From an uncultured Bacteroidia bacterium (GTDB taxonomy: Bacteria > Bacteroidota > Bacteroidia > Bacteroidales > F082), in NCBI GenBank assembly GCA_902770835.1, contig CACXUM010000001.1:62001-126000 (forward strand): DNA of 64,000 bases. Direction: 5' to 3'. Positions 18,519 to 38,273 of this stretch are shown in pieces. Both the position numbers and the translations under genes were made by a program. Numbering within the stretch: position 1 is the stretch's first letter; each line of letters begins with the position of its first letter. The notes under the pieces are model-generated. The model did not search any database, was not told the DNA's origin, and was given only the letters and a program-made list of their open reading frames with translations.

Positions 18519-19619
18519 TTATAGATTTTTGCTGAAAAACTCCGCCAGCGTGTCCCACGGGATGTAGTTGCCTTCGCCGCCGTCGTAGAGGTCGCAGTGG
18601 GTGGCGCCGGGGATGATGAGCAGTTGCTTGTTTTCGGGGTTGGGATTGGGTTTTCCGATGAAGTTGTAGCCTTCGGCTTGGCCTTCCACCATATATTTGT
18701 AGGCCGCCTCGCCGAAATAGCGCGAATGGGCTTCCGCGCCGTGCATCACGAGGACGGCAGAGCGGATTTCGTTGATGTAGTAGAGGAAACGGCTGTTGGC
18801 GTAGGCCTGTGTGCCGATGACGCGCCAGCCGTCGTTGCTGTTGCCGCTGCGCTTGTGGTAGCCGCGAGGCGTTTTATAATATGCGTGATAGTCTTTCACG
18901 AACTGCGGAACCTCATCGGGCAGCGGGTCGATGACACCACCTGCCATTGCCATCGGGTCGGCGAGGCGTTGCTTGCCCATGGCCTCGCGAGCTGCGTGGC
19001 GCGACTCTTCTTTGTCTTCGCTGTCGAAGTAGCCATTGCCGCTGACACGGGTCATATCGTACATCGTCGAGGCCACGGTGGCTTTGATGCGCGGGTCGGC
19101 AGCGGCAGCGTTCAAGGCGATGCCACCCCAGCCGCAAATGCCGATGATGCCGATGCGTTCTGCATCTACGTTGTCTTGCTTCGACAGGAAATCAACAGCG
19201 GCCATAAAGTCCTCGGTGTTGATGTCGGGCGAGGCCGTGCGGCGGGGTTCTCCACTGCTTTCACCGGTATAGGACGGGTCGAAAGCCAAGGCCACAAAAC
19301 CGCGCTCTGCCATCTTCATAGCGTACAGGCCGCTCGACTGCTCCTTGACGGCTCCAAAAGGTCCGCTCACGGCAATAGCCGCCAATTTGCCTTCGGCATC
19401 CTTCGGCGTATAAAGGTCAGCGGCCAACGTCAGGCCGTATTGTGTTTCAAACGTCACCTTGCGGTGGTCCACTTTTTCGCTCAGCGGGAACACCTTGTCC
19501 CACTCCTGCGTGAGGTTCAATTCTTGCTTCATTTCTTCTTTTGTTTCTGTTGTTTGTGTTTGGTTGTTGCAGGCGGTCATAAGTGCTACCACTGCTGCAA
19601 AGATGAGAATCTTTTTCAT
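18519..19619 (-). CDS. Alpha/beta-hydrolase lipoprotein with a cysteine nucleophile
   Basis: A 366-residue lipoprotein (MKKILIFAAVVALMTAC, lipobox LMTAC). The hydrolase domain contains IAVSGPFGAVKEQSSGLYA, FDPSYTGESSGEPR and the elbow IGIICGWGG-like IGICGWGGIALNAAA. The nucleophile position (G-x-C-x-G) is cysteine rather than serine, as in dienelactone hydrolases. The terminal histidine is in IPGATHCDLYDGG. The substrate is unknown; a lactone or quinone-derived compound would fit the FMN reductase coded 8 bp downstream. It is second in the operon led by the cyclophilin-like lipoprotein. Confidence 0.83.
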   Translation of the reverse strand: MKKILIFAAVVALMTACNNQTQTTETKEEMKQELNLTQEWDKVFPLSEKVDHRKVTFETQYGLTLAADLYTPKDAEGKLAAIAVSGPFGAVKEQSSGLYAMKMAERGFVALAFDPSYTGESSGEPRRTASPDINTEDFMAAVDFLSKQDNVDAERIGIIGICGWGGIALNAAAADPRIKATVASTMYDMTRVSGNGYFDSEDKEESRHAAREAMGKQRLADPMAMAGGVIDPLPDEVPQFVKDYHAYYKTPRGYHKRSGNSNDGWRVIGTQAYANSRFLYYINEIRSAVLVMHGAEAHSRYFGEAAYKYMVEGQAEGYNFIGKPNPNPENKQLLIIPGATHCDLYDGGEGNYIPWDTLAEFFSKNL

Positions 19620-21410: not shown

Positions 21411-23102
21411 CTGTTTTCCGCAATGGGACACCCGATTTTTAGCTTTTGTGGCGGTAAGTGACTATGTCATACAGTTCCTGCTGTTCCTCATCCATGCGCA
21501 GGAGTGTGGTTTTGGTGTATCCAGACTGGGGAAGCACATAGGTCAGTTGATACATGCTCCTTGTAATCTGTTGAGCCCTGGCGAGTGTGATGGCTGACTC
21601 GCTTGCCTTGAGCAGCCTCTCGAGTTCAAGCATGATCGTGTATGCCGTGAAGCAGATGCAGATGTGCCCCTCTATCCTGTTCCTGAGCCTGTGGAAGATG
21701 GGCCTGACCAGCAGGTCGGTCTTGTTCATGCGGAACGCCCGCTCGATGCGCCACAGGTCGGAATACCTGTCTATTACCTCCTCGTTCGAGAGGCTGGTGT
21801 TCGTGACATAGCCCTTGATGCCGTCCCAAGCCTCGTCCGCGCCGAACCTGTCGTAGTCGATTGAGATTTTCACGTCCCCTTCCATCTTCAGGTACTTGTT
21901 GTAGCCCTTGTTGTTGATGTTGGCCTTGGTCAGCCGTCCGCTCCCCAGCCTCTTCTCCAGCCGGTCCAAGCCGCGCTGTCGGGTCTTCTTGTCCTTGGCG
22001 GTACGGCTTTCCGTCTTGGACACGACCATCCTTGTCCCGTCGGGACGGCTGATGACCCGTACATCGCCGTTTTTCAGGCCGAGGCCGAGGATGGCCTTTT
22101 TCACCGCCTCGCTGTCGTTCCTTGGCCTGGCCCCGACGATGAACTCGTAGCCTTCCTCCTTCAGGCCGGCCATGTTCCTTTTCGACAGCAGGCCGGCATC
22201 CGCCACGACGATGGGCTTGCCGAAGCCGAACTTGGCGGACATCCTGCCGATGAACTCCATCAGCGTGTGCCCCTCGAAGATGTTGCCTTCGTAGATGTCG
22301 TATCCGATGGGGTTGCCTCCGGCGGCCACCAGCAGGCCGAGGAATATCTGCGGGTTGCTATGCCTCCCGTCCTTCGAGAACCCGCACTTGCGAAGGTCGT
22401 CCTCGTCCGAGGCCTCGAAGTAGAGCGTCGTCATGTCGTAGAACACCACCTCGACGCGCCCTCCGCACTCCCGCCTCGTCTTCTCGAAGCTGATGCGCTC
22501 GACAAGGCTCTTGATGTCGGGTTCGTCCGAAGCCTTCCCCTTGCGGTGGCAGAGGCTGTCCAGGAAACGGTAGATCTGGTCAGGGCTGTAGCTCTCCCCC
22601 AGGTAACGGGCAAGGTAGTCGATGGTCTTGAGCTTGCTCCCTGGGTTGAACAGGCGGCAGACGACCAGATGCCTGAACATCCTGCTGCCGACGGCACCGT
22701 ACCCTATCTCGTCGTAAAGCCTCCCATAGATCACCTCGGGGCCGATTACCTGCACTTGGCTGTTGCCCAAGCCGGAGACCAGCTCCTCAAGCCTGTCGTC
22801 AATGCCTTGGCCGAAAAGGGGAAGCTCCGGGTGGCTGTGTTCACTGACATATTGCCTGCCCCTGGCCTCAAGACACTGGATCTCCCATTCCTCACTCGCA
22901 GCCCCGAGGCTGCACACGACACGGTATCCCCCACCGCTCTTGTCCACCACCTGGACGCTGGTGCTGCCCGACTTGTTGACCTTCCGACGTACAAACATGC
23001 CGCAAAGATAGCACGGGACACCCAAAAACGCAAATTTTTGAAAGAGATTCTACTGGAATTTAAGCACTTATAAAATCCCATCCGAAAATCGCGGAAAACA
23101 GG
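21410..23102 (-). mobile_element. IS1634-family insertion sequence
   Basis: An element of about 1,693 bp bounded by a 12-bp perfect inverted repeat, CCTGTTTTCCGC (21410-21421) and its complement (23091-23102), with one transposase gene on the minus strand. A 50-51 bp direct repeat flanks it. Long, variable target duplications are a known trait of IS1634-type elements. It sits immediately after the mcrC stop codon and leaves mcrC intact. Confidence 0.88.
21439..22998 (-). CDS. IS1634-family DDE transposase
   Basis: About 519 residues. It starts MFVRRKVNKSGSTSVQVV and contains the DDE set: Asp in VVFYDMTTLYFE, Asp in IVVADAGLLSKRN and Glu in DLWRIERAFRMNKTDL, with the Y-x6-E-type YSDLWRIERAF signature of IS4-superfamily enzymes. 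The length is normal and no frameshift is seen, so the element may be active. Its GC content is clearly higher than that of mcrC next to it, consistent with recent arrival. The ATG at 22998 is preferred over an upstream non-ATG start. Confidence 0.92.
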   Translation of the reverse strand: MFVRRKVNKSGSTSVQVVDKSGGGYRVVCSLGAASEEWEIQCLEARGRQYVSEHSHPELPLFGQGIDDRLEELVSGLGNSQVQVIGPEVIYGRLYDEIGYGAVGSRMFRHLVVCRLFNPGSKLKTIDYLARYLGESYSPDQIYRFLDSLCHRKGKASDEPDIKSLVERISFEKTRRECGGRVEVVFYDMTTLYFEASDEDDLRKCGFSKDGRHSNPQIFLGLLVAAGGNPIGYDIYEGNIFEGHTLMEFIGRMSAKFGFGKPIVVADAGLLSKRNMAGLKEEGYEFIVGARPRNDSEAVKKAILGLGLKNGDVRVISRPDGTRMVVSKTESRTAKDKKTRQRGLDRLEKRLGSGRLTKANINNKGYNKYLKMEGDVKISIDYDRFGADEAWDGIKGYVTNTSLSNEEVIDRYSDLWRIERAFRMNKTDLLVRPIFHRLRNRIEGHICICFTAYTIMLELERLLKASESAITLARAQQITRSMYQLTYVLPQSGYTKTTLLRMDEEQQELYDIVTYRHKS

Positions 23103-23153
23103 ACAATCGTTTTTTTTCTTATTTTTCTTTTTTACAATACTCCTTAAACACTC
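23103..23153. repeat. Right copy of the 51-bp target duplication
   Basis: This copy carries the functional 3' end of mcrC. It differs from 21360-21410 at one position, a change that is silent in the mcrC frame (TGT/TGC, Cys). Confidence 0.85.
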
Positions 23154-25476
23154 GTGCAGGCATAGCTACGCCTTTGGCGGCATTTTGGTCTATACCGTAT
23201 GTGAAAGGTGTTGTCAGCGGTATGTATTCTCCAAGTTCAAGTCTAACACGATAAGGTTTATCGTAACCTGTATAACGTTTATCTCTTTTATCCTTGTCCA
23301 GCAGTTCTTTGGCATCAATTACAGCGTATGAGGAAACTTTGTAATAACCCGAAACCTTGTGATCAATTACCGCCGCAAGATATTTGACTTGGCTGAAATC
23401 AACACCTGCCAACAGCGTAGAATAGCCAGAAATGAAGTAAGTGGCTGTTCCGTTGACAATCTCTTCTACATTCTTGTTGACATGTGTATCAACAGAAGAC
23501 AGGAAATACGGACCTCTTCCGCCACCTTCCTCCACATATTCCAGCCCTTTCTGCGGAATGGCTGTCTCCACCAGCGTCTGCATAGCGTGATTGTCATTCA
23601 ACCAAGTTTCAATTTGGTGGTACAACACATCCTCCGATGATGTCGGGTCTAACAACAGATCGTTGAATTCGCCATTTTCCTTATACATTTCATGCCAATG
23701 GCCACCCGGTTTTAGCGGAAATGCACCGATGTTCACCTCGTCAACGCTTCGCTGATAATACGAGTTCACAAATTGCTCTCTGGTCAGGTTGCCTGGATAG
23801 AGTACATAACCGCCTATCACTTCACGTTTCAGTTGCTCATCGCTGGAATGGGTGTAATAGATGGCATCGCGATAGCGGTGCATTTGGTTGATGGCATCCA
23901 CCGGTGGCACTTCCACTCCGTTGCGCGAGGGAATAGTAGTGTCGCGGATACGGTATTTGGCATCAAAAAGATAGGTGTACAATATGGCATCTTCTTTCTT
24001 GCTCAATCTCAACACAATATCAGGCCGCTGTTCTGTAGTCTTGGAAGTCGTATCTGCTATGTCTGTATTCTTGTTAGTGTCCGACTCATCGGTAAGATGT
24101 TCCTCATCGTCCGTGGTGGCGTTATACATCACCGATGCCAACTGCACTTCAGGGTCTTCATTCTCCCAAAAAGTGACTTCAGATTTGCTGCCTTGAATCA
24201 ATGATTTGACAAACTCACCTTCTGTTTGGCTTCCTACTGTTCGCATCGTGGCCTTGTCACGCAAAATGTGTTGCACCATGTTCTTCACTTTGATGAAGCA
24301 CCATATCTCATAAAGTTCCGAAATATCCTTCACCTCCAACTGCATCACTCCTTCCTGCAGGTCATAACCGCATTGCAGTATGATCCATTGCTCATATACA
24401 TCGCGGTAGCCTGCCGCCTGCTTCATCACTAACGAGTCTTGAGTAAAACCCTTGAATGTACCAATCCCCCTGAAGAACGGGTCTGACACCAACGAGGCTA
24501 ATTCCTCGTTCATCACATTGATTTGGCTTCGGATGTCCAAATTGTCAGCTTTCAACGCATTCATCACATTGCGCAACACCCGTTTGAAACGGTCGGCAAT
24601 GTTGTTGAGGGCGTATTTCAGAAAACGATTTTCGATGGTGTCTTTGCTCAAGTACATCTCCTCCATTCGATAGAGGTGCGCTGGCTCGTCCTTGAATTCC
24701 TCGTATTCGTTTTCCAACTCAGCTGGCATGTAAGGCATCCGTTCCGCCCTCTCATAACGCACGGAGGTTTGTAATCGGCGTTTAGGATTGCTGATAATCA
24801 ATCGGGCGGCCTCGGTGATTTTTGCGAAACAATCCCTGAAAATCTGCCACCATATTAAGTCGGTCGAATCATGGTCGGAGGTATGGAAGGTAAGATAGGT
24901 TTCCTTAAGAAACGAGTAGCTGAGCATGGCAAATTCTTCCTCAATGTCGCGTATCACATTGCGCATATCGGTGCGGTAGTCCATCTTGTAGCTCAGCACC
25001 TCTGTCGTAAAAGCGAGACAATCCTCGCGACCATCTTTCTCATATACTACCCGAATGTCGGTGCGCCCCACTTGGTTCTTGTAGTTGACCGACCCGAAGA
25101 TAAGCGTATCTTCTGCCGACACATGCTGGCTCTGCTCCTTGCCGATGGTCAGGCGCAGCAACTTAATGTTAGGTGCATTGGCTTTTACATGCAACGGATA
25201 GTCGGTGTTCTCAAAGAAGAAGGCATCCCAAACTATAGTTTCCGCTTCCGACACCCAATCCGTATTTTCATCAACAAACGTAGTCCCTTTCCTAAATTGA
25301 ACATTTTCCGATGACTGACCAAAGAATGCCTGTTTGCGGACCAACGTTTCTGGATTTTCGTCATCCACCATTAAGTTCTGAACACACTCGTTTATCCTCC
25401 TGCCATAGTTGGGACAGGTGAAGCAGAGCGTCACATCGCCGTTGCGAATTTCAAGGTGTTCGATGAAATCTGCCAT
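23119..25476 (-). CDS. mcrC: McrC-like nuclease subunit (DUF2357 / PD-(D/E)XK)
   Basis: About 785 residues. An N-terminal DUF2357 region (to about 400) is followed by a PD-(D/E)XK_7-type nuclease core: Asp in RPDIVLRLS and DAKYR in TYLFDAKYRIRD near residue 530. The C-terminal 150 residues look like an extra beta domain (EYIPLTTPFTYGID) and are not assigned. McrC-type subunits cut DNA when driven by the McrB GTPase. The ATG at 25474-25476 overlaps the McrB stop by one base (TAATG), a coupling signal. A Thr/Asp/Glu-rich low-complexity linker lies just before the nuclease core. Its stop codon lies inside the IS1634 target duplication. Confidence 0.85.
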   Translation of the reverse strand: MADFIEHLEIRNGDVTLCFTCPNYGRRINECVQNLMVDDENPETLVRKQAFFGQSSENVQFRKGTTFVDENTDWVSEAETIVWDAFFFENTDYPLHVKANAPNIKLLRLTIGKEQSQHVSAEDTLIFGSVNYKNQVGRTDIRVVYEKDGREDCLAFTTEVLSYKMDYRTDMRNVIRDIEEEFAMLSYSFLKETYLTFHTSDHDSTDLIWWQIFRDCFAKITEAARLIISNPKRRLQTSVRYERAERMPYMPAELENEYEEFKDEPAHLYRMEEMYLSKDTIENRFLKYALNNIADRFKRVLRNVMNALKADNLDIRSQINVMNEELASLVSDPFFRGIGTFKGFTQDSLVMKQAAGYRDVYEQWIILQCGYDLQEGVMQLEVKDISELYEIWCFIKVKNMVQHILRDKATMRTVGSQTEGEFVKSLIQGSKSEVTFWENEDPEVQLASVMYNATTDDEEHLTDESDTNKNTDIADTTSKTTEQRPDIVLRLSKKEDAILYTYLFDAKYRIRDTTIPSRNGVEVPPVDAINQMHRYRDAIYYTHSSDEQLKREVIGGYVLYPGNLTREQFVNSYYQRSVDEVNIGAFPLKPGGHWHEMYKENGEFNDLLLDPTSSEDVLYHQIETWLNDNHAMQTLVETAIPQKGLEYVEEGGGRGPYFLSSVDTHVNKNVEEIVNGTATYFISGYSTLLAGVDFSQVKYLAAVIDHKVSGYYKVSSYAVIDAKELLDKDKRDKRYTGYDKPYRVRLELGEYIPLTTPFTYGIDQNAAKGVAMPARVFKEYCKKEK

Positions 25477-27203
25477 TAGGTCCAATAAGATACAAATTGT
25501 TTGTTCTTGAGTGTCTCGGCCATTTTCTCAAGTTTCTCGTTGGATTTAGGATAATCGTTGGTGATTACCTCTTTCAAGTCGTCCAACAGGTTCCCAATCG
25601 ACCGTTTGTCGCCTTCGATGCGGGAGAGTATTTTCATCATTGTAAATTCATCCAAGGCAACATGGATATCGGCATCAGGATTGAACTTGTAGGCGGCACT
25701 CACATAGAGCAATACCTCATTGGCGGCACGGTAACCCAACTTGAACGGTGTATCTTCCAACACTTTGTTAATGTTGGTCAAATACTCTTTAACTGTATCA
25801 GCTTCGTTATTATCTGCTTCAAGGCCACGAATAGGACGGTTGATGAGCAGGTTTCTTGTGGCTTCGTCCATTTCTGCCACATCGTTCTCGGTATCCCCGT
25901 TGAAGAACCCTTCATAATCCACTTCGTTCATCACTACCGACATGGCACGGTCGAGCACCTTGCGCGAGAACGAGAAGGTGGTCTCATCCATGTTCACCGT
26001 ACCCATAACCAGCAAGTTCTTAGGCAATGTAAGACCTTTCTCAAAGAATTGCAACGCCAACGGATTCTTGTCGATGGGATCAGGCACACCAAACAATTGT
26101 ACAAGCATTGCCTTTCCCTCTTTTTCGCCAAACTTCTTGAATGGCTTGATGATAGGATCGGTCACATAATTGCCATCAGCATCAAAAGAACGTGATTCGA
26201 TTGCACTAAGGAACTCTGCAAAATACTGTTCCACGGGGGCAAGGTTCATTTCATCCAAGCAAAGGAAATAGGGTGTTTCTAAATCTTGCCAAGCTTTCAC
26301 TATGAAATCTATGAAAGGCGGGAACTCGTATCTTTTGGCCACGTTGGAATAGTATCCCACCACATCCATTGAGTTGTGCCAATTAGGTTTCACTTGGATT
26401 AGTTCAAAATTCTCTGGACGGTTGTCTTTCCATCTGTCCTCCGTATTCTCATATTTTTGTGTTGTGGAAGCTTGCGCCAGTTTCCTCACAATGCGACTTT
26501 TGCCAGTGCCGCTGATACCTGCCAATAGCATAAAGGGCTTGGTGCGGAGGGCGGTGAGATAAGGCTTAATAATACTATCATCAGTTAAAGAAACCGCAGA
26601 ACTATCTATATGATATTTTGGCTCAATTGTTGAACTAAGGTAGGGCCTTGAGTCAAAGATGTTTATAAAACTCTCAAATGTTTCTTTATCCGGATGGTCA
26701 GGCGTTCCTATGAATATAAACGATGCTTGATTAATGTCGGCTTTGTAATTTGCTCTTGAGCATTTGAGGAACTTCCTGCCATTCAGGTGGTGGTTCGCAT
26801 AGTCATATATACTTCTCAAATCTCTCCTTGAGCCTTCTGTGTCAAGGTTTGTTTCAATAGATATAATGTATTCTTTGGGATTGAAATTATCCAATCCCTT
26901 TGCCATTTCATCATCTTTTGTAAAAATTGAAAATAAATAGTATCGAAGTTGATGTTTCTTTGCGAAGTAAAACGGTTTCTTATATTCATCCAAAAAGACC
27001 CTAAGTTGAGGCTTTGTTCTGTCTGTCCCCGTTATACTAATGTTCGTATAAGATATTAAAACTATTTCTTCATTGTCTATTTTATACAGTTCGCTCCAAT
27101 CTTTTCTGAAATCAATCTTGTCATCGAATGTAGAAAAATCGACTTTTTCCCACTTTGGGAAACTACTCTTTATAAATTCCTTTATGCGTGTAATAGAATC
27201 CAT
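25476..27203 (-). CDS. mcrB: McrB-like AAA+ GTPase
   Basis: A 575-residue motor of the McrB family. Walker A is LLAGISGTGKSRIVRKLA near residue 230, Walker B is YFLCLDEMNLAPVEQYFAE and the McrB signature MNxxD reads MGTVNMDETTFSFSRKVLD. The N-terminal 200 residues should select the target DNA; I do not recognise the fold. In type IV systems McrB reads modified cytosine, but a methylase in the same operon suggests another rule here. The downstream mcrC start overlaps its stop. The gene begins 12 bp after the Dam-like gene. Confidence 0.9.
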   Translation of the reverse strand: MDSITRIKEFIKSSFPKWEKVDFSTFDDKIDFRKDWSELYKIDNEEIVLISYTNISITGTDRTKPQLRVFLDEYKKPFYFAKKHQLRYYLFSIFTKDDEMAKGLDNFNPKEYIISIETNLDTEGSRRDLRSIYDYANHHLNGRKFLKCSRANYKADINQASFIFIGTPDHPDKETFESFINIFDSRPYLSSTIEPKYHIDSSAVSLTDDSIIKPYLTALRTKPFMLLAGISGTGKSRIVRKLAQASTTQKYENTEDRWKDNRPENFELIQVKPNWHNSMDVVGYYSNVAKRYEFPPFIDFIVKAWQDLETPYFLCLDEMNLAPVEQYFAEFLSAIESRSFDADGNYVTDPIIKPFKKFGEKEGKAMLVQLFGVPDPIDKNPLALQFFEKGLTLPKNLLVMGTVNMDETTFSFSRKVLDRAMSVVMNEVDYEGFFNGDTENDVAEMDEATRNLLINRPIRGLEADNNEADTVKEYLTNINKVLEDTPFKLGYRAANEVLLYVSAAYKFNPDADIHVALDEFTMMKILSRIEGDKRSIGNLLDDLKEVITNDYPKSNEKLEKMAETLKNKQFVSYWT

Positions 27204-27214
27204 ATACTATCAAT

Positions 27215-28066
27215 TTAATAATTAGTTATTATCAAGTGTACACTTTCTGATTTGAATCTGTTTCTTATATTGACAGCATATTTTTTAGAATATTCTGCCT
27301 TAATATAAGGTCTATATAATTGTTTTGTAAGATTTGTTTTACCGATAACCATCATGGTTTTAGAATGCAAATTTTTAAAATCTTGAGATAGTTTTATATG
27401 ATGTTCTTCCGTAAAATCATCATGATCAATATTCCCATAATCTGTAAATATGCAATCATAAGGGGGATCCAAAAAAATAAAATCTCTTTCAGAACATCTA
27501 CCAAATACTTCTGTATAATCAACATTAATAATTTCCGATCTTTGAAGTAATTCGTGATGTTTCTCCGTTATTATTTGAGTGTTAAAGTTCTTGTATCTGC
27601 CAAATGGTACATTGTATTCTCCTTTTGAATTGAATCTAAGCATACCAGAATAGGCTGTTTTGTTTATGAAAAAATACAATGTGGCATCAAGATATTTTTT
27701 TTCGATTTTGTCATTATACATATCCCTAAGCCAATAATACAAGGCCTCATTCTTATTATCGACATATTGTGTTGGTAATACCTTCCCTTTCAGTTTTTCA
27801 TACTCACATTGGTTTGTATGGTATATTTGTTCTAATTCTATCAATTCTTTTTTTAACACTTCGTAGTTGGTTTGAACAGACAAATAAAAATTGATTAGTT
27901 TTGAGTTAATGTCATTAATCAAACCTGCCCGTGGTTCCAAATAAAAAAAGAGTGCAGCACCACCTGCAAAAGGCTCTATATACCTATCGAAATCATCAGG
28001 AATATACTGCAAGAAATAGGGTATCTCTTTGCTTTTTCCTCCTCTGTATTTTATTATAGGCTTCAT
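27215..28066 (-). CDS. D12-class adenine-N6 DNA methyltransferase (Dam-like)
   Basis: About 283 residues. The AdoMet site is IEPFAGGAALFFYLEP, with the N-terminal KYRGGKSKEI typical of the Dam/DpnIIA class, and the catalytic motif is FLDPPYDCIF near residue 195. It should methylate adenine in a short DNA site; the site cannot be read from sequence. The start at 28066 lies 10 bp after the DUF5131 stop. Base composition is distinctly AT-rich compared with the DUF5131 gene before it, which hints at separate origins of the operon parts. A host-protecting role for McrBC is inferred. Confidence 0.9.
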   Translation of the reverse strand: MKPIIKYRGGKSKEIPYFLQYIPDDFDRYIEPFAGGAALFFYLEPRAGLINDINSKLINFYLSVQTNYEVLKKELIELEQIYHTNQCEYEKLKGKVLPTQYVDNKNEALYYWLRDMYNDKIEKKYLDATLYFFINKTAYSGMLRFNSKGEYNVPFGRYKNFNTQIITEKHHELLQRSEIINVDYTEVFGRCSERDFIFLDPPYDCIFTDYGNIDHDDFTEEHHIKLSQDFKNLHSKTMMVIGKTNLTKQLYRPYIKAEYSKKYAVNIRNRFKSESVHLIITNY

Positions 28067-28076
28067 GTTTTGCAAT

Positions 28077-28802
28077 TTATACCGGCATCGCCTGTAAGAC
28101 TTTGCCTTCAATCATTTTCCCGTTTTTTTGCTTATTGCGTTTGACACCATCGGCGCCCCAAGTGCCCCACTGTTTGAAGAAAAACGCTGCTCCTTGCGTC
28201 TCGGTCTGGCGTTTGATGTTAAGCACCCACTCCTCTTTCATCGGGCGGGCTTGAGGACCACTCTCACCACCTACAATCACCCAATCGATATGAGTCAAGT
28301 CCAATTCTCCCAAATCTTCAATTAATGGCTCACAGGAAAGAAACCGTATGGGCGCGTCCAAGACCCGAAGACAATTGATGCGTGGTTTGGAAGTTTGTGC
28401 TTCCACGGTCACACCGAGCCATGCGTTCTGCGGTATATCGTGGGTGAGGAAATACTCCGCCATGCGGTCAGCACGTTTAGTAAGCAGCTGATACCGATGT
28501 TGCGGCGTGCGGCAGATGGTGTCCATCACTTTGTCCACAAAAGAGAAAGGAACGTCCACATGGAAGAGGTCGCTCATGGAGCAGACAAAAATGGTGTGAG
28601 GCTGCCGCCAAGCGAGAGGCTCATCGAGGCACTCGTCATGCAGGGTGGCTTGGAAACCATTGGCGTATTTTTCAAGCCCCATAGCCTTCAGTCGGCGCGA
28701 CATCACCTCGGCATAGCAATGGGCACACCCCTGCGAAATCTTGGTGCAGCCCGTTACGGGGTTCCACGTCTTATCGGTCCATTCTATTTTGGTGGTTTTC
28801 AT
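28077..28802 (-). CDS. DUF5131 (phage Gp37/Gp68-like) three-Cys-motif protein
   Basis: A 241-residue protein starting MKTTKIEWTDKTWNPVTGC. It holds the three-cysteine motif C-TKISQG-C-AH-CYAE, like a radical-SAM iron-sulfur site, then FVCSMSDLFHVDVPF and WVIVGGESGPQARPM. The family occurs in phages and bacteria, usually beside a TcmP gene, as here. The chemistry is unproven; nucleic-acid modification by a radical-SAM-like centre is plausible. The ATG overlaps the TcmP stop (ATGA), a strong sign of coupled translation. Confidence 0.88.
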   Translation of the reverse strand: MKTTKIEWTDKTWNPVTGCTKISQGCAHCYAEVMSRRLKAMGLEKYANGFQATLHDECLDEPLAWRQPHTIFVCSMSDLFHVDVPFSFVDKVMDTICRTPQHRYQLLTKRADRMAEYFLTHDIPQNAWLGVTVEAQTSKPRINCLRVLDAPIRFLSCEPLIEDLGELDLTHIDWVIVGGESGPQARPMKEEWVLNIKRQTETQGAAFFFKQWGTWGADGVKRNKQKNGKMIEGKVLQAMPV

Positions 28803-29920
28803 TGTTTTGTCATTAGCTTATACTCTATAATACGATGATTATTAAAGATTTGGTCGTAACTAACCAATGGAGAGATTGACTTATAATCTATCAAACCTTC
28901 CTTTTTCATCTGTTTCAACTCATCAGCGGCATGTGAGGGGATATGACCTTGGTCAAGTGTGAACAAATAGACATCATTGTTTGTTCGTAATTCTTGTTTT
29001 AGAATTTTCTCTCTAAGAAGTGCAGCAAAACCCTCTTTTTTCGTTGGTTTCTTAGCCTCAAACAAAAGGAGTTGGGATTTTGTCAGATCCTCATCAATAT
29101 CGAAATTGGCCTCTCCATTGATGGTGTTCTTTTTCCACGCCACATTCAAGAATTTGTCCACTGCTAATGGATGGCTCGCGCCAAAGATAATGCCGTAAAC
29201 ATTTGCCCCTTTCTTTATGGAGAACGGATATGGCTTCATGTTTGAATCCGCGGGTAGTTTTTCTCTGAATTGCTCCAATAGACTGCGGTGAATAAACTTG
29301 TAGGGATTCTCCTTTGCTCGTTGCATGTCAATTTGCACATTCATCGAAAACTCAGGTCTCTCACCAAATCGGAAGAAATAGGAAGACGAAACATAATACA
29401 AGAAATCAACTGTTGAAGTAGTGACAAGTTCCTTGAAATACTGGTCCGACAAAAACTTGATTCCGTTTTGGTCGAGAAAAACCAAGGAGGGGAATCTCTT
29501 GATGATGGTTATGATTTCTGGAAATAATTCAGCAAAATCACAGCGAGTGTATTTGAGTTTGACAGTCTCTTTTTCTATTGCATTTTTAAGAGCTTCATTG
29601 TCGTTGATGAATTGGTTGCAGTTGTTCTGAAGTGTTTCAAACTTATTCTGATCATACTCATTTAGCCAAACATAAACTCGTTTAGCACGACTGATAATAG
29701 ATTCGAGCATCCCGTTGATTTGTTGCAAGATGCGTATAGGACTTCCAGCTACTCCATTCTTGTCCCGGCCAGGACCTGCAAACAAATCGAACATGCAGAT
29801 ATGCTTATATGGACTCATGACGAAAACAGGCAACCATTCTTTGGTATAAGCCTCAAATATTTCAAGCTTTGTGATAGTGCCTTCGTCAAAAGGGTGATCA
29901 TGTAAGTTTTTAATCGCCAT
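28799..29920 (-). CDS. tcmP: Three-Cys-motif partner protein TcmP
   Basis: A 373-residue protein with an N-terminal motif CMFDLFAGPGRDKNG, like an AdoMet-binding loop, and later LVFLDQNGIKFL in the position of a DPPY-like motif (here DQNG, so methyltransferase activity is doubtful). This is the TcmP family, defined by its link to three-Cys-motif proteins. The C-terminus (residues about 290-370) resembles a winged helix. It is the first gene of the five-gene operon. A -7 box lies at 29928-29935. Confidence 0.88.
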   Translation of the reverse strand: MAIKNLHDHPFDEGTITKLEIFEAYTKEWLPVFVMSPYKHICMFDLFAGPGRDKNGVAGSPIRILQQINGMLESIISRAKRVYVWLNEYDQNKFETLQNNCNQFINDNEALKNAIEKETVKLKYTRCDFAELFPEIITIIKRFPSLVFLDQNGIKFLSDQYFKELVTTSTVDFLYYVSSSYFFRFGERPEFSMNVQIDMQRAKENPYKFIHRSLLEQFREKLPADSNMKPYPFSIKKGANVYGIIFGASHPLAVDKFLNVAWKKNTINGEANFDIDEDLTKSQLLLFEAKKPTKKEGFAALLREKILKQELRTNNDVYLFTLDQGHIPSHAADELKQMKKEGLIDYKSISPLVSYDQIFNNHRIIEYKLMTKQ

Positions 29921-34112: not shown

Positions 34113-35714
34113 TCATTTTCTTTTTATGACATACTTTTGGTTGGGGGCATTGGGTGAATCAGGTTGTGTTCGATCAAGAAGACCTGCATCAACCAATAAT
34201 GTAATGTATTTTGCAATGTTTTTGTTGTGATATGTAACATTTATGTGATTCAATATTTCACGACTACTTCTCGGAAATATACAATATCGCAACACCTCCT
34301 TTTGTCTGTCGGATAAAAGTAAGTGACTGTCAGGGTTAGTAACTAAGTTAGTAACTAAGTTAGTATCTAAGTTGGTAACTAAGTTAGTATCTAAGTTACT
34401 ATCAGAGCTACTATCAGAGTTAATGCGTTGATTATGTGAAGTATTACATTTATCCGTAATGCTCAAAGGTGTATTGGTGTCAGAGTAAGTGTCAGAGTAA
34501 GTGTCAGAGTAAGTGTCAGGGTTGGTGTCTAAGTAAGTGTCTAAGTTAGGTCTCTTGAAGGTAATCCAAACAAACAGGCCGTCGGTGCCATACGTTGGCT
34601 CTGGCACTCCCGCAGTTTTGCAGGCATCCACCATTCGACTCACTCCTGTGCCCCAACTTTCCAAATATGCCGTCATATACAGGGCGTTTGCAATGATAGG
34701 ATTTTGCGGATAGGAACGGTGCGGCAGTTTGATGGTCTCAATGGTCAGTTCGTTGGGCAAATGTCCCGCATTCTCAATCTCCACACGGTCGTCGAAAACA
34801 GCGATTCCGACACTGCCGCTGGGCGAATCCAATTGGCGGTGGCACAAGGCATTGGTCAGCGCCTCACGCAGTGCCTCAAAGGGAATCTCCAATTGTTCTT
34901 CACGGCGAAGGCCTTTCACGATACCGCTTTGGTTCAAATGCTTGAACAGGAAAGCCAAACCAGCATCGAGCAGTTCAAAGAAATTGCCATTGACGCGCAT
35001 ATTGTCAATGAAATCGCGCTTTTCTTTGCCACGAAAACGCGCCATTCGGAGCAAAAACTGCGGGTAATCTTGCGGGCGTTTGGTGAACAGTGCGGCAGCG
35101 GCATTCTTTATCTTCCCGTTTTCAACCATTGCAAACTTGTCGAGTAGGGTCATCGTGTCTTCCGAGGCGGATGAGGCTGGCATTCGTCCCTTGTTGATGC
35201 CATACATCACTGTATTTCGAATCTGTCTTTCGTCCAAATCCTCAAGACGAAGGAAATCGGGCGTTTGGCTTTCCCACGCAAATCGAGTGGGATTGCTGCG
35301 CCGCAATCGTTCCTCAAACATTGCGCGGGGCATCTGCACCGTCGTACTTTCCACCTTGTAGTAGGCGCGACCGTCGTAGGTATAAGGCGCATCGCCGAAT
35401 TTGGCCGCTTCCACGTGAATGCCGATTACGAAGTTGTCAGGGCGTTCAGGAACTTCAACGATCTCCAACGGCAACTTAATGGCGGGTTCTATCTTCGTGA
35501 TTTCGTGGGCTATTTCGCGTTGCGTGTTGTCGGTGACGTTTTGTCCCAAAATCTCCAACTTCGGCGTGATGCCGAAAAACAGCCAGCCACCGTCGGAGTT
35601 CAAGAAAGCGCAAAGTGTCTGCATACCTTTTACCAGTTCGCCAGTGCTCTTTTTCAACTCCAAGACACGGCTCTCATCGTTGGCGATTAGTTTCTTTATG
35701 TCGGTTATTGTCAT
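34113..35714 (-). CDS. AlbA_2 (Schlafen-like) ATPase regulator with repeat-coded linker
   Basis: A 533-residue protein: N-terminal AlbA_2 domain (ESRVLELKKSTGELVKG; FLNSDGGWLFFGI), a GHKL-like ATP-binding region (EALREALTNALCHRQLD; ENAGHLPNELTIETI) and a C-terminal winged helix (about 450-533). Between them is a spacer of four-residue repeats, mostly DTxx and NLVT, coded by 12-bp tandem repeats at 34331-34421 and 34476-34548. The family is common in Bacteroidota, and its role (transcription control, defence or mobile-element biology) is unsettled. A -7 box lies at 35730-35737. A paralogue with its own repeats is at 49586-50983. Confidence 0.82.
   Translation of the reverse strand: MTITDIKKLIANDESRVLELKKSTGELVKGMQTLCAFLNSDGGWLFFGITPKLEILGQNVTDNTQREIAHEITKIEPAIKLPLEIVEVPERPDNFVIGIHVEAAKFGDAPYTYDGRAYYKVESTTVQMPRAMFEERLRRSNPTRFAWESQTPDFLRLEDLDERQIRNTVMYGINKGRMPASSASEDTMTLLDKFAMVENGKIKNAAAALFTKRPQDYPQFLLRMARFRGKEKRDFIDNMRVNGNFFELLDAGLAFLFKHLNQSGIVKGLRREEQLEIPFEALREALTNALCHRQLDSPSGSVGIAVFDDRVEIENAGHLPNELTIETIKLPHRSYPQNPIIANALYMTAYLESWGTGVSRMVDACKTAGVPEPTYGTDGLFVWITFKRPNLDTYLDTNPDTYSDTYSDTYSDTNTPLSITDKCNTSHNQRINSDSSSDSNLDTNLVTNLDTNLVTNLVTNPDSHLLLSDRQKEVLRYCIFPRSSREILNHINVTYHNKNIAKYITLLVDAGLLDRTQPDSPNAPNQKYVIKRK
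34331..34548. repeat. 12-bp tandem repeats coding a protein linker
   Basis: Two tracts: about seven units of AAGTTAGTAACT-like sequence (34331-34421) and six of GTGTCAGAGTAA-like sequence (34476-34548). The 12-bp unit adds or removes four residues without a frameshift, so copy number may vary between strains. Confidence 0.85.
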
Positions 35715-35755: not shown

Positions 35756-38263
35756 TCACTTACTGACGGTTTCGCAAAAACTATTAGACGAAGCCTTTAT
35801 CATTTCAACTCTTTGACCAACATTTAGATGATTATCTGATTCAAGCAATGCATCAGTCCAATAACCTTCTAACATTACTATGTAATTCTTGTTCTTCATT
35901 CCTAACACTCTACCATAAACAACTTTCCCCCACTCAATTTCTTCAATTCTACTCCTATTGCTCAAGAGTATTTCCTTCAAGCTCAATACTACACTATTTT
36001 TTTCGGTGTCAATTTTTTTTATACGAAGAGGACAAGCAAAGCCATTTTCAAATAGTTTATCAATATTATTTATACAACATAAATCGCTGACATCTGAATT
36101 AAAAAGCACAGCCCTTGCTTCTCTTGTTTTAGAGTATTTTATTCTAAAACTCACTCCTGCCTTAAAGCTACCTGTCATCTGTAAATTGTCGAAAATGTAG
36201 CCAACACCATATTTCTCTGAGAAGGACTGTAAAGGTGGTGTAATAAAAGGCCTAAAAGAACCTATTAATGATCGTTTATCATCGGCAACATCTTTGACCA
36301 TTATAGGATATGTTCTTCCGATTTTATAATTAAAAAACTCGTCTCCGATATGACATTCTGAATCAGGAATAAATACTTTATATTTTTTGTTAATCTTGCC
36401 AATTAAACCATAAGATGTCTTTTCTGTTATTTCACATTGTACTTCGTATTCGTATGGTTTTAATGTGTCATAAAAAATTTGATAATCAGAAACAATGTTT
36501 TTCTTACTTAATATAATAATTCTTTCGTCTTTATTGATTTTTTTAATTCTAACAGTTTGAATAGAATTTCTTTTTATTTTACCCTTCAACTCATTTATTT
36601 CTGAATCAACCCAAGATAGTTCAGAAAAAGGCAGTATTGCGTAATAGTCACCAGGCAATTCAGTTTCGAATACAGTTTCTTTTATTTGAAATATTGTACA
36701 CTCCAGTGATTCCCCAATTTTGTAACTAATATTATCCCACGGGTCTTGTAGATTTAATTTATTTAAAATCAACTTGTTTGAAATATAATCTATTTCTTTA
36801 ATAAAACATTTTATTTCTGATCCTACTGGAAATAATTGGTGTAACAATCCGAATCTGCTAAATGTCAAACCTTGTCGAAATGCAACGGCTTGTTGATTCG
36901 AATCCTTTACTCTTAGTTTAATAAAATCATCATCCGCATATTCAATAATAGCATCAACAACACCTCCCAACTCGTACTTGTTATCAACCAGTGATTTCGG
37001 CTCGCTTTGTGTGGATAATAACGATGCAACAATCACTCCTTTGGTTTCCACTGACAAAGGTATTGCTTGAATAGTCATTCCTTCAGAATAGTAATTCTTT
37101 AGTTTTAGTCCAGAAACTACAGAGATTTCATTTATAGGAATTCTAACATCTATTCCATTATACACACCTAAAAGTTTGTCAGCAAATACATTTGTTATAT
37201 TTATATCAATCGTATTGTGTTCTTGAATAGCTTTATCCACATTCCTATATGCAACCGCCAAATCACCATCTTTTTTTATTTCAATGCAATAACAAATATT
37301 GTTTCTTCCCAATTCATCTTTATATATTTTGGGTCCATTTTGAAGAATGTAATTACCACTTGCAATAAGTTCACCATAGACTTGCTCCAAAATTTCAATT
37401 TTTTCATTTCTTGCCAATAAATAAAAAGCTGTTATTCCCCGAGAAAAACCTTCTTTGATTCTACGAACATAAGGAGCTATGCCTTTCTCATAATATGTAT
37501 CGTATTTTGCCACTAATAATACTGCAACTTTTACATTATTCGACACACAGGAAAGTGGGGTCAATTCATCGTATTCTCTTGAAGCAATGTTGTATATAAA
37601 ATCCATTAATACAACAGATTCTTTCTTGTGGTCTTCATTTGGAATTTCAGTAGCAATTTTGTTTCCCCAAATGGCAAATTCTCTTAAAAGAATCCTCGAA
37701 AACAATCCTTCCTTTTCAATAATCGAAACTTTATCAAAAGTATCATTATACTGGTTTATGTCTTGCTTATTCTCTTCAATAAACTGAGGAATCATATAGT
37801 TTTTAAGGTCAAAGTTGGTAAGGAATTTTCTGATAACGGAGAAATCAACAGCTTTTTTTACGCCTTCATCCATAAAAGGTTTTGAAAGAGGCAATAACGT
37901 TTTTTTTATATATAAAGAAGTCGTATTTATTATGTTCTGACAATTGTCTTTATTGTACTTTAATAGCACAATCGCCTCTCCTGGCTTTAATTCAACATTT
38001 CCATCCTTATCTTTTTTTGCCCATTTTAATGAAAGTTTAGGCAAATCAAGTTCTGGAACGATTGTGTTTATTCCATTAATGGATAATTGACAAATAGATT
38101 CGACAGATGTTTGAGTGCTTTTGCTTTTAAACCAACCAAATGTTGCGGCAAAAAAGCTCAGCAAATCGGCAACTATCTTTTTAACATTATCATAATTCTT
38201 AATGATTGCTATAAAGATGCTAACTATAGTTGTTGGCAAAATGATTGATAAAAGAGCCTCCAT
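35756..38263 (-). CDS. Membrane-anchored protein with S1/OB-fold repeats, function unknown
   Basis: About 835 residues, not recognised as a named family. Residues 3-24 are a transmembrane segment (MEALLSIILPTTIVSIFIAI). The N-terminal half is helical. The C-terminal half (from about 440) holds several stretches that look like S1-type RNA-binding OB folds: ELGGVVDAIIEYADDDFIKL, KIGESLECTIFQIKE...YAILPFSELSW, and WGKVVYGRVLGMKNKNYIVM near the end. The pattern recalls ribosomal protein S1 modules tethered to the membrane. The ATG at 38263 follows the zinc-ribbon stop by ten bases; the earlier TTG is less likely. The gene is very AT-rich, so it was probably acquired by transfer. Confidence 0.55.
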   Translation of the reverse strand: MEALLSIILPTTIVSIFIAIIKNYDNVKKIVADLLSFFAATFGWFKSKSTQTSVESICQLSINGINTIVPELDLPKLSLKWAKKDKDGNVELKPGEAIVLLKYNKDNCQNIINTTSLYIKKTLLPLSKPFMDEGVKKAVDFSVIRKFLTNFDLKNYMIPQFIEENKQDINQYNDTFDKVSIIEKEGLFSRILLREFAIWGNKIATEIPNEDHKKESVVLMDFIYNIASREYDELTPLSCVSNNVKVAVLLVAKYDTYYEKGIAPYVRRIKEGFSRGITAFYLLARNEKIEILEQVYGELIASGNYILQNGPKIYKDELGRNNICYCIEIKKDGDLAVAYRNVDKAIQEHNTIDINITNVFADKLLGVYNGIDVRIPINEISVVSGLKLKNYYSEGMTIQAIPLSVETKGVIVASLLSTQSEPKSLVDNKYELGGVVDAIIEYADDDFIKLRVKDSNQQAVAFRQGLTFSRFGLLHQLFPVGSEIKCFIKEIDYISNKLILNKLNLQDPWDNISYKIGESLECTIFQIKETVFETELPGDYYAILPFSELSWVDSEINELKGKIKRNSIQTVRIKKINKDERIIILSKKNIVSDYQIFYDTLKPYEYEVQCEITEKTSYGLIGKINKKYKVFIPDSECHIGDEFFNYKIGRTYPIMVKDVADDKRSLIGSFRPFITPPLQSFSEKYGVGYIFDNLQMTGSFKAGVSFRIKYSKTREARAVLFNSDVSDLCCINNIDKLFENGFACPLRIKKIDTEKNSVVLSLKEILLSNRSRIEEIEWGKVVYGRVLGMKNKNYIVMLEGYWTDALLESDNHLNVGQRVEMIKASSNSFCETVSK

Positions 38264-38273
38264 TAAAAACAAC

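Follow-up and report, generated by a model that had tools for sequence, protein, structure and literature searches.

A 64,000-nucleotide stretch of DNA from an uncultured Bacteroidia bacterium of the F082 lineage (contig CACXUM010000001.1, positions 62,001 to 126,000; hereafter the window) carries a five-gene operon encoding TcmP, DUF5131, a Dam-like DNA methylase, and McrB- and McrC-like subunits. Our analysis indicates that this operon probably consists of two parts: the last three genes form a restriction-modification (R-M) system whose specificity resides in an exchanged cassette, while TcmP and DUF5131 make up a separate two-gene module that shares the operon.

The five open reading frames all lie in the same direction on the minus strand, from 29920 down to 23119, as a preliminary description of this DNA had reported, and family profile matches and motifs agree with the identities it gave them. 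The tight junctions it described are also borne out by direct reading: the tcmP and DUF5131 genes overlap by ATGA and mcrB and mcrC by TAATG, with the McrC start codon (ATG at 25476; stop at 23119) inside the latter, while 10 bp separate the end of DUF5131 from the methylase ATG at 28066 and 11 bp separate the methylase gene from mcrB. The genes, their parts and the gene next to them are as follows.

28799..29920, minus strand: TcmP (TIGR04474, 126 bits; GMT-wHTH, PF22560; PDC-M30A, 467 bits), with a class-I methyltransferase-like domain at about residues 1-264 and a C-terminal winged helix
28077..28802, minus strand: DUF5131 (PF07505, 348 bits), cysteine spacing CX6CX2C, radical S-adenosylmethionine (radical-SAM)-like by fold and nearest to spore photoproduct lyase
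26559..28082, minus strand: proposed exchangeable cassette for specificity, made up of the methylase gene and codons 1-215 of McrB, delimited by loss of DNA similarity to relatives
27215..28066, minus strand: Dam-like (D12) N6-adenine DNA methyltransferase (TIGR00571, 183 bits)
25476..27203, minus strand: McrB-like AAA protein, full gene (AAA_5, 26.2 bits, cut-off 22)
26559..27203, minus strand: McrB N-terminal domain, presumed DNA reader, without a Pfam family
25476..26558, minus strand: McrB AAA+ motor with NxD (NMD) motif (AAA_5; Walker A and B; VNMD)
23119..25476, minus strand: McrC-like nuclease subunit (PF09823 DUF2357, 144 bits; PF04411 PDDEXK_7, 103 bits; PD-DxK)
21439..23025, minus strand: IS1634-family transposase (NF033559, 329 bits), directly downstream and outside the system

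Motifs are intact in TcmP (DLFAGPG at 45, LDQNG at 149), the methylase (EPFAGG at 31, DPPY at 200), McrB (Walker A at 229, LDEMN at 316, VNMD at 403) and McrC (PD at 485, DAK at 505), and DUF5131 has the cysteine motif C19-X6-C-X2-C. The nearest solved structure to the methylase is DpnM (2dpm, 98 bits), followed by Dam. The operon thus brings together the hallmarks of McrBC-like R-M systems, namely an AAA+ subunit with Walker A and B motifs, a nuclease with DUF2357 and PD-(D/E)xK domains, and a DNA methyltransferase. The presence of NxD in place of NxxD (VNMD) places McrB in the NxD branch, an assignment based on the motif.

The cassette emerges from comparison with the closest relatives. In one of these, L002 (contig G399:C154, matched by content), DNA identity to the window is 87.7% over positions 31264-28083 (an acetyltransferase gene, TcmP and DUF5131) and 94.7% over positions 26558-23129 (the AAA part of McrB plus McrC), vs. 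no significant DNA similarity between these flanks (28082..26559). This zone holds the Dam-like methylase and McrB residues 1-215 in the window; in L002 it holds two methylases, one Eco57I-like and one D12, together with a McrB N-terminus unrelated to the window's. In L001, TcmP and DUF5131 (92% and 96% amino-acid identity to the window, respectively) are followed by a C5 methylase (PF00145) and by a second one, recognized by its motifs and cut off by the contig end after 117 residues. Another contig of the L001 genome (L137) encodes McrC, a McrB whose N-terminus is of a third kind, and a match (86%) to the window's downstream gene at 18519-19580; a 266-residue open frame on this contig reads from its sequence as the putative end of a C5 methylase.

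The left breakpoint falls at the last codon of DUF5131 in the window, L001 and L002, and the right breakpoint in codons that precede ...LRTKPFMLLAG, some 12 residues ahead of Walker A, in the window, L002 and L137. Taken segment by segment, DNA identity to these relatives is 90-91% for TcmP, 93-95% for DUF5131, 91-92% for the AAA part (L002 and L137) and 94-96% for McrC; the methylase gene and McrB 1-215 have no significant match in L001/L137 or L002. Across seven McrBs, the N-termini never match one another better than E 0.1, while the AAA parts are 38-95% identical. The pattern is repeated in two further pairs of loci (L063/L066 and L064/L068), where McrC is 84% and 82% identical, respectively, and McrB is similar only from the AAA part onward, while the genes ahead of that part differ within each pair. 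Such exchanged zones include methylases in L066 (C5), L064 (D12) and L057 (C5), and HATPase or response-regulator genes as well.

Judged from these DNA comparisons, target specificity appears to be a plug-in cassette, in which one or more methylases and the McrB N-terminus are exchanged as a block between conserved flanks, giving the R-M half of the operon clear signs of modular specificity. Because joint exchange of methylase and N-terminus is what a shared site would require, it points to the methylase and McrB-McrC forming one system, and is the strongest evidence here for placing the methylase and the N-terminus together. It likewise suggests that the window system has a recognition site, that the methylase is cognate to McrBC and that the McrB N-terminus reads the methylase's site. 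In such a system, the Dam-like methylase would mark self DNA and the McrB N-terminus would read the target, so that swapping it along with the methylase would change specificity, while the McrBC-like motor and nuclease would cut DNA lacking the mark; this last step is proposed by analogy with relatives such as PcaRCI, described below. The preliminary description had proposed one R-M system made of the methylase and the McrBC-like nuclease, and the joint replacement of methylase(s) and McrB N-terminus, with motor and nuclease kept, supports it on this point.

The McrBC of E. coli is the textbook enzyme that cuts modified (methylated) DNA, and the window's McrBC could by the same token be an ordinary Type IV cutter, with the Dam-like methylase an unrelated neighbour. 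A McrB of the wider clade (L016) does carry the MrcB_N domain (PF12102), and the McrBC of L082 has no recognised methylase among the rows shown. Yet neither MrcB_N nor a known modified-base reader was found at the window's McrB N-terminus, where a Pfam search with residues 1-218 gave nothing at E values up to 1, bar one chance row at 0.86; a divergent reader is possible. This, together with the joint exchange of methylase and N-terminus, makes the Type IV explanation improbable in our view. In addition, unmethylated DNA is restricted by a studied, methylase-accompanied relative of the DUF2357 kind (PMC8989522), and R-M systems that combine McrBC-like subunits with methylases are already established (PMC8989522, PMC1459862).

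Several observations weigh against our interpretation. The McrB N-termini lack a match to any known domain family, each relative has just one outer flank in common with the window, and the adjacency of L001 and L137, separate contigs of a single metagenome-assembled genome, is presumed. HATPase or response-regulator genes, with no recognised methylase, occupy the exchanged zones of L063 and L068, and many DUF2357 loci show no recognised methylase either: one was identified by similarity in 4 of the 11 loci fetched from the order (2 more by motif only, some loci being cut by contig ends) and in 7 of the 15 fetched from the family, L002's own contig included. Strict coupling is also challenged by L016 and L057, whose N-termini are unrelated and whose adjoining genes differ, yet which have an upstream C5 methylase in common at 87% identity; because of this methylase, we rejected the two loci as a further clean swap. 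As for the pair, the radical-SAM reading of DUF5131 relies on a predicted fold and on three invariant cysteines with non-canonical spacing. To see whether like readers accompany like methylases, we searched 395 genomes from the phylum Bacteroidota, and plasmids, with the McrB N-terminus of the window; the genomes gave its own copy and one stop-broken row at E 0.005, none of them usable, and the plasmids gave no homologue.

All five genes are joined by short gaps or overlaps, and one could therefore imagine a single five-gene machine in which TcmP and DUF5131 supply a second mark or are required for McrBC restriction. The pair lies directly upstream in the three loci of the closest clade (given the presumed L001-L137 link), and two other loci have it with McrBC: L060, and L082, where the adjacent McrBC pair is PF10117/AAA_5. 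Its distribution nevertheless makes this explanation the least probable of those we considered. The pair stays constant while methylases and McrB N-termini differ across three cassettes; L003 and L004 have it with no McrBC in the fetched stretch, as do, by the queries applied, most of the 46 loci, and methylase-McrBC loci have no pair within the fetched stretch in L021, L057 and L138. One genome (G856) has the pair at L004 and two C5 methylases with McrBC on another contig (L138), both well inside their contigs. Finally, the McrBs of L060 and L067 are 95% identical over their whole length, and the pair is found in L060 only, between a DUF3226 gene and McrB. These two loci have in common an AAA_15 ATPase gene, the DUF3226 gene, McrB and McrC; TcmP-DUF5131 is inserted in L060, and in L067 McrB and McrC are separated by a different gene.

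Since the pair and methylase-McrBC occur independently, we rejected TcmP/DUF5131 as a self-marking enzyme for McrBC, a role that the preliminary description had offered for it. In the genomes searched (order and family), this independence holds in most cases, an outcome that the same description had said would speak against one machine. It had also suggested looking for the same five families together elsewhere, and their co-occurrence is so low that the set is rare and not a widespread unit. Among 295 genomes of the order, TcmP is found in 32, DUF2357 in 12 and both in the window genome only (1.3 genomes expected by chance, calculated by hand). Among 173 genomes of the family, 17 have a DUF2357-McrC, 19 have TcmP and 5 have both, sharing a locus in three (G000, G399 and G361, the last with no methylase between TcmP and DUF2357) and lying on different contigs in two (G348 and G431).

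In 41 of 47 loci, a script placed a partner (37 DUF5131, 4 of radical-SAM type) immediately downstream of TcmP and on its strand; the gap between the two genes runs from -19 to +12 bp, apart from one of 96 bp. The six exceptions are a partner present and missed by the pattern (L023), contig ends (L047, L052), TcmP genes that were not called (L050, L086) and a TcmP in pieces with its partner further away (L085). The order or orientation of the two genes can differ on plasmids and in a phage.

The surroundings of the pair link it to R-M systems in general. An R-M gene was identified by similarity within two open reading frames in 13 of 46 TcmP loci vs. 0 of 40 regions drawn at random from these genomes (Fisher p 1.3e-4), and in 10 of 46 without own-locus queries (Fisher p 1.4e-3), the R-M queries having been drawn partly from TcmP loci. 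A Pfam scan found one HaeIII restriction enzyme among the controls, which are hence at least 1 in 40, the p values being computed with 0; some loci are alike (L079/L083/L084 and L076/L078), such that the count is not fully independent. One of the 13, L085, is doubtful, its script label of 'McrC-like' being unconfirmed by Pfam. The same label was wrong for L073, which is still counted because Pfam identifies a Type I specificity protein (Methylase_S), and L082 has a McrBC neighbour by Pfam that is outside the script count. Among the 25 commonest Pfam families, Type I and Type III restriction families and DUF1016/YhcG rank high for 168 of 170 TcmP neighbours (L046 and L048, themselves TcmP, being excluded), vs. 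no R-M family with at least two members, and the one HaeIII, for 128 of 144 control neighbours (16 excluded).

In several cases the pair lies inside the R-M operon: between HsdR and HsdS in L025, L037, L079, L083 and L084, and between HsdS and an HsdR-like gene in L051. Its neighbours are Type III in L043, L076 and L078, IIG-like in L029 and L041, an N6 methylase with Type I specificity in L073, and McrBC in the window, L001/L137, L002, L060 and L082. On plasmids, a methylase or R-M gene lies within two genes of the pair in 3 of 10 regions, hand-picked from the match list: Type ISP in Leptospira biflexa, a SAM-dependent DNA methylase in Deinococcus, and an EcoRI-family methylase with DUF262 in Rhodococcus. 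Two further plasmid regions have a DISARM DrmC gene and a dGTPase near the pair. In a Sinorhizobium meliloti expression table, TcmP (SMa2243) stands next to the defence helicase Hna (SMa2245; PMC12445080).

The pair corresponds to the PADLOC candidate PDC-M30, with adjacent matches of 467 bits for TcmP (PDC-M30A) and 378 bits for DUF5131 (PDC-M30B). It is a distinct possibility that it is a stand-alone anti-phage system, found near R-M genes only via defence islands, and this is compatible with the R-M interpretation of the last three genes. PDC-M30 has been counted in P. aeruginosa strains, as a prediction only (PMC10855318). The pair is also found with no R-M gene nearby, at many loci as well as on plasmids and in a temperate phage, where it lies between integrase and repressor. 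Neither phages nor viral contigs yielded a relative of the window's TcmP, while a distant TcmP (L037) matched 2 phage records and DUF5131 was present in 161. In Gordonia phage Fairfaxidum (L090), DUF5131 and a convergent gene annotated as 'methyltransferase', probably TcmP, lie between the integrase and the immunity repressor. Against this explanation, the pair frequently lies within an R-M operon (HsdR - pair - HsdS) rather than merely close to one, and some copies have neighbours of another kind. In L032, L071, L072 and L086, TcmP and/or DUF5131 are near XRE/Peptidase_S24 repressors and DnaQ-like exonucleases (by Pfam or resemblance); this setting includes a DnaQ-like exonuclease with GIY-YIG and a DinB-like polymerase. 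S24-type repressors, DinB-like polymerases and DnaQ-like exonucleases as neighbours suggest DNA repair.

The DUF5131 model is consistent with such a function. The first 38 of the 50 rows listed in its fold search were radical-SAM enzymes, identified partly by title, and among the listed matches spore photoproduct lyase was the closest. C19, C26 and C29 are invariant in 27 of 27 sequences, spaced CX6CX2C rather than as the canonical CX3CX2C, and because of this spacing we call DUF5131 radical-SAM-like and not a canonical member. Variant radical-SAM cysteine spacings exist. The alternative TcmP partners match Radical_SAM, 2 of the 4 with weak matches to spore photoproduct lyase. TcmP aligned by hhalign with RsmD (79%) and C5 methyltransferases (70%), vs. 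5% for D12 and 0.3-0.4% for controls; its AlphaFold2 model (predicted local distance difference test score 87.7) has alternating strands and helices, with strands ending at 45, 87 and 149, where the motifs lie. A PDB sequence search with TcmP and DUF5131 gave no significant match. The window genome has a second, distant DUF5131 (G000:C12:3-629, 139.9 bits, cut by the contig end), 29.5% identical to the window copy.

TcmP, as a methyltransferase-like, winged-helix partner, would probably bring DUF5131 to a nucleic-acid substrate, and the two may then have some activity of their own. The pair could repair or reverse DNA base lesions, such as damage by methylases or nucleases, and in that way aid R-M systems. 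The proximity to spore photoproduct lyase, the alternative partners, the repair-gene neighbours and the R-M neighbours of several types are consistent with this idea, which concerns the first two genes only and which we regard as unlikely, if still worth entertaining. Whatever its function, TcmP-DUF5131 stands as an independent module, so far uncharacterised, that has a radical-SAM fold and is repeatedly found among R-M genes, here next to the R-M system that we propose for the last three genes.

Elsewhere in the window, a protein with SLFN_AlbA_2 and HATPase_c_4 domains is encoded at 34113-35714 (minus strand) and an 838-residue protein with an S1 RNA-binding domain match at 35756-38272 (minus strand). 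In sister loci, L064 and L068 among them, genes that resemble AlbA at their starts separate McrB from McrC.

In the literature searched, with most subscription journals outside its coverage and texts available in part, we found no account of the function of the 'three-Cys-motif partner', no mention of DUF5131, and no account of the TcmP-DUF5131 pair or of McrBC cassette exchange. The window and its relatives provide a natural three-way comparison in which one kind of McrBC-type motor and nuclease carries different cassettes of methylase plus N-terminus; with three such interchangeable cassettes at hand, McrBC-type specificity is directly testable. The constant pair gives an unstudied radical-SAM-fold module a defined setting, and its recurrence, with a fold like that of spore photoproduct lyase, inside several R-M types raises the question of radical chemistry on DNA in bacterial defence. 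As a speculative generalization, TcmP-DUF5131 might be a radical-chemistry companion of R-M systems at large, with a spore photoproduct lyase-like enzyme and a methyltransferase-like DNA-binding guide changing or repairing bases, and riding in operons of Type I, III, IIG, ISP and McrBC type. As a separate idea, retargeting of McrBC-type R-M systems might occur by a swap of the methylase and reader block.

The R-M half of the operon resembles systems that have been studied. PcaRCI of Pectobacterium carotovorum, a DUF2357 McrBC-like R-M system, restricts unmethylated plasmids and phages (PMC8989522). Like the window system, it combines a methylase, a McrB-like AAA protein whose N-terminus is unrelated to that of E. 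coli McrB, and a DUF2357/PD-(D/E)xK nuclease; in contrast, its methylase is a Dcm-like C5 enzyme (CCNGG) rather than a Dam-like D12 enzyme, and TcmP/DUF5131 are not described in the available text. LlaJI of Lactococcus also has methylases, a McrB-like subunit with a unique N-terminus and a nuclease subunit (PMC1459862). It has two methylases vs. one in the window, and the nuclease subunits are likened here by role. R1.LlaJI binds probes with the LlaJI site, site binding by the N-terminus being a feature of LlaJI; both restriction subunits are required in vivo, where the target is unmethylated DNA (PMC1459862), and according to a 2025 review the unmodified site is read through a B3 domain (PMC12707154).

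Bell et al. noted that NxD McrBs are often associated with methylases, leaving this branch to a later publication (PMC11090510). The window shares the NxD motif (VNMD) and methylase neighbours with it, and the HATPase and response-regulator genes of the branch are also found in the window's sister loci; cassette exchange, unlike here, is not described in the available part of that paper. PADLOC's PDC-M30 comprises the same two families as the window pair and is a prediction without a function, to which the present analysis adds the embedding in R-M operons and the spore photoproduct lyase-like fold. Spore photoproduct lyase itself is 14% identical to DUF5131, which differs in its CX6CX2C spacing.

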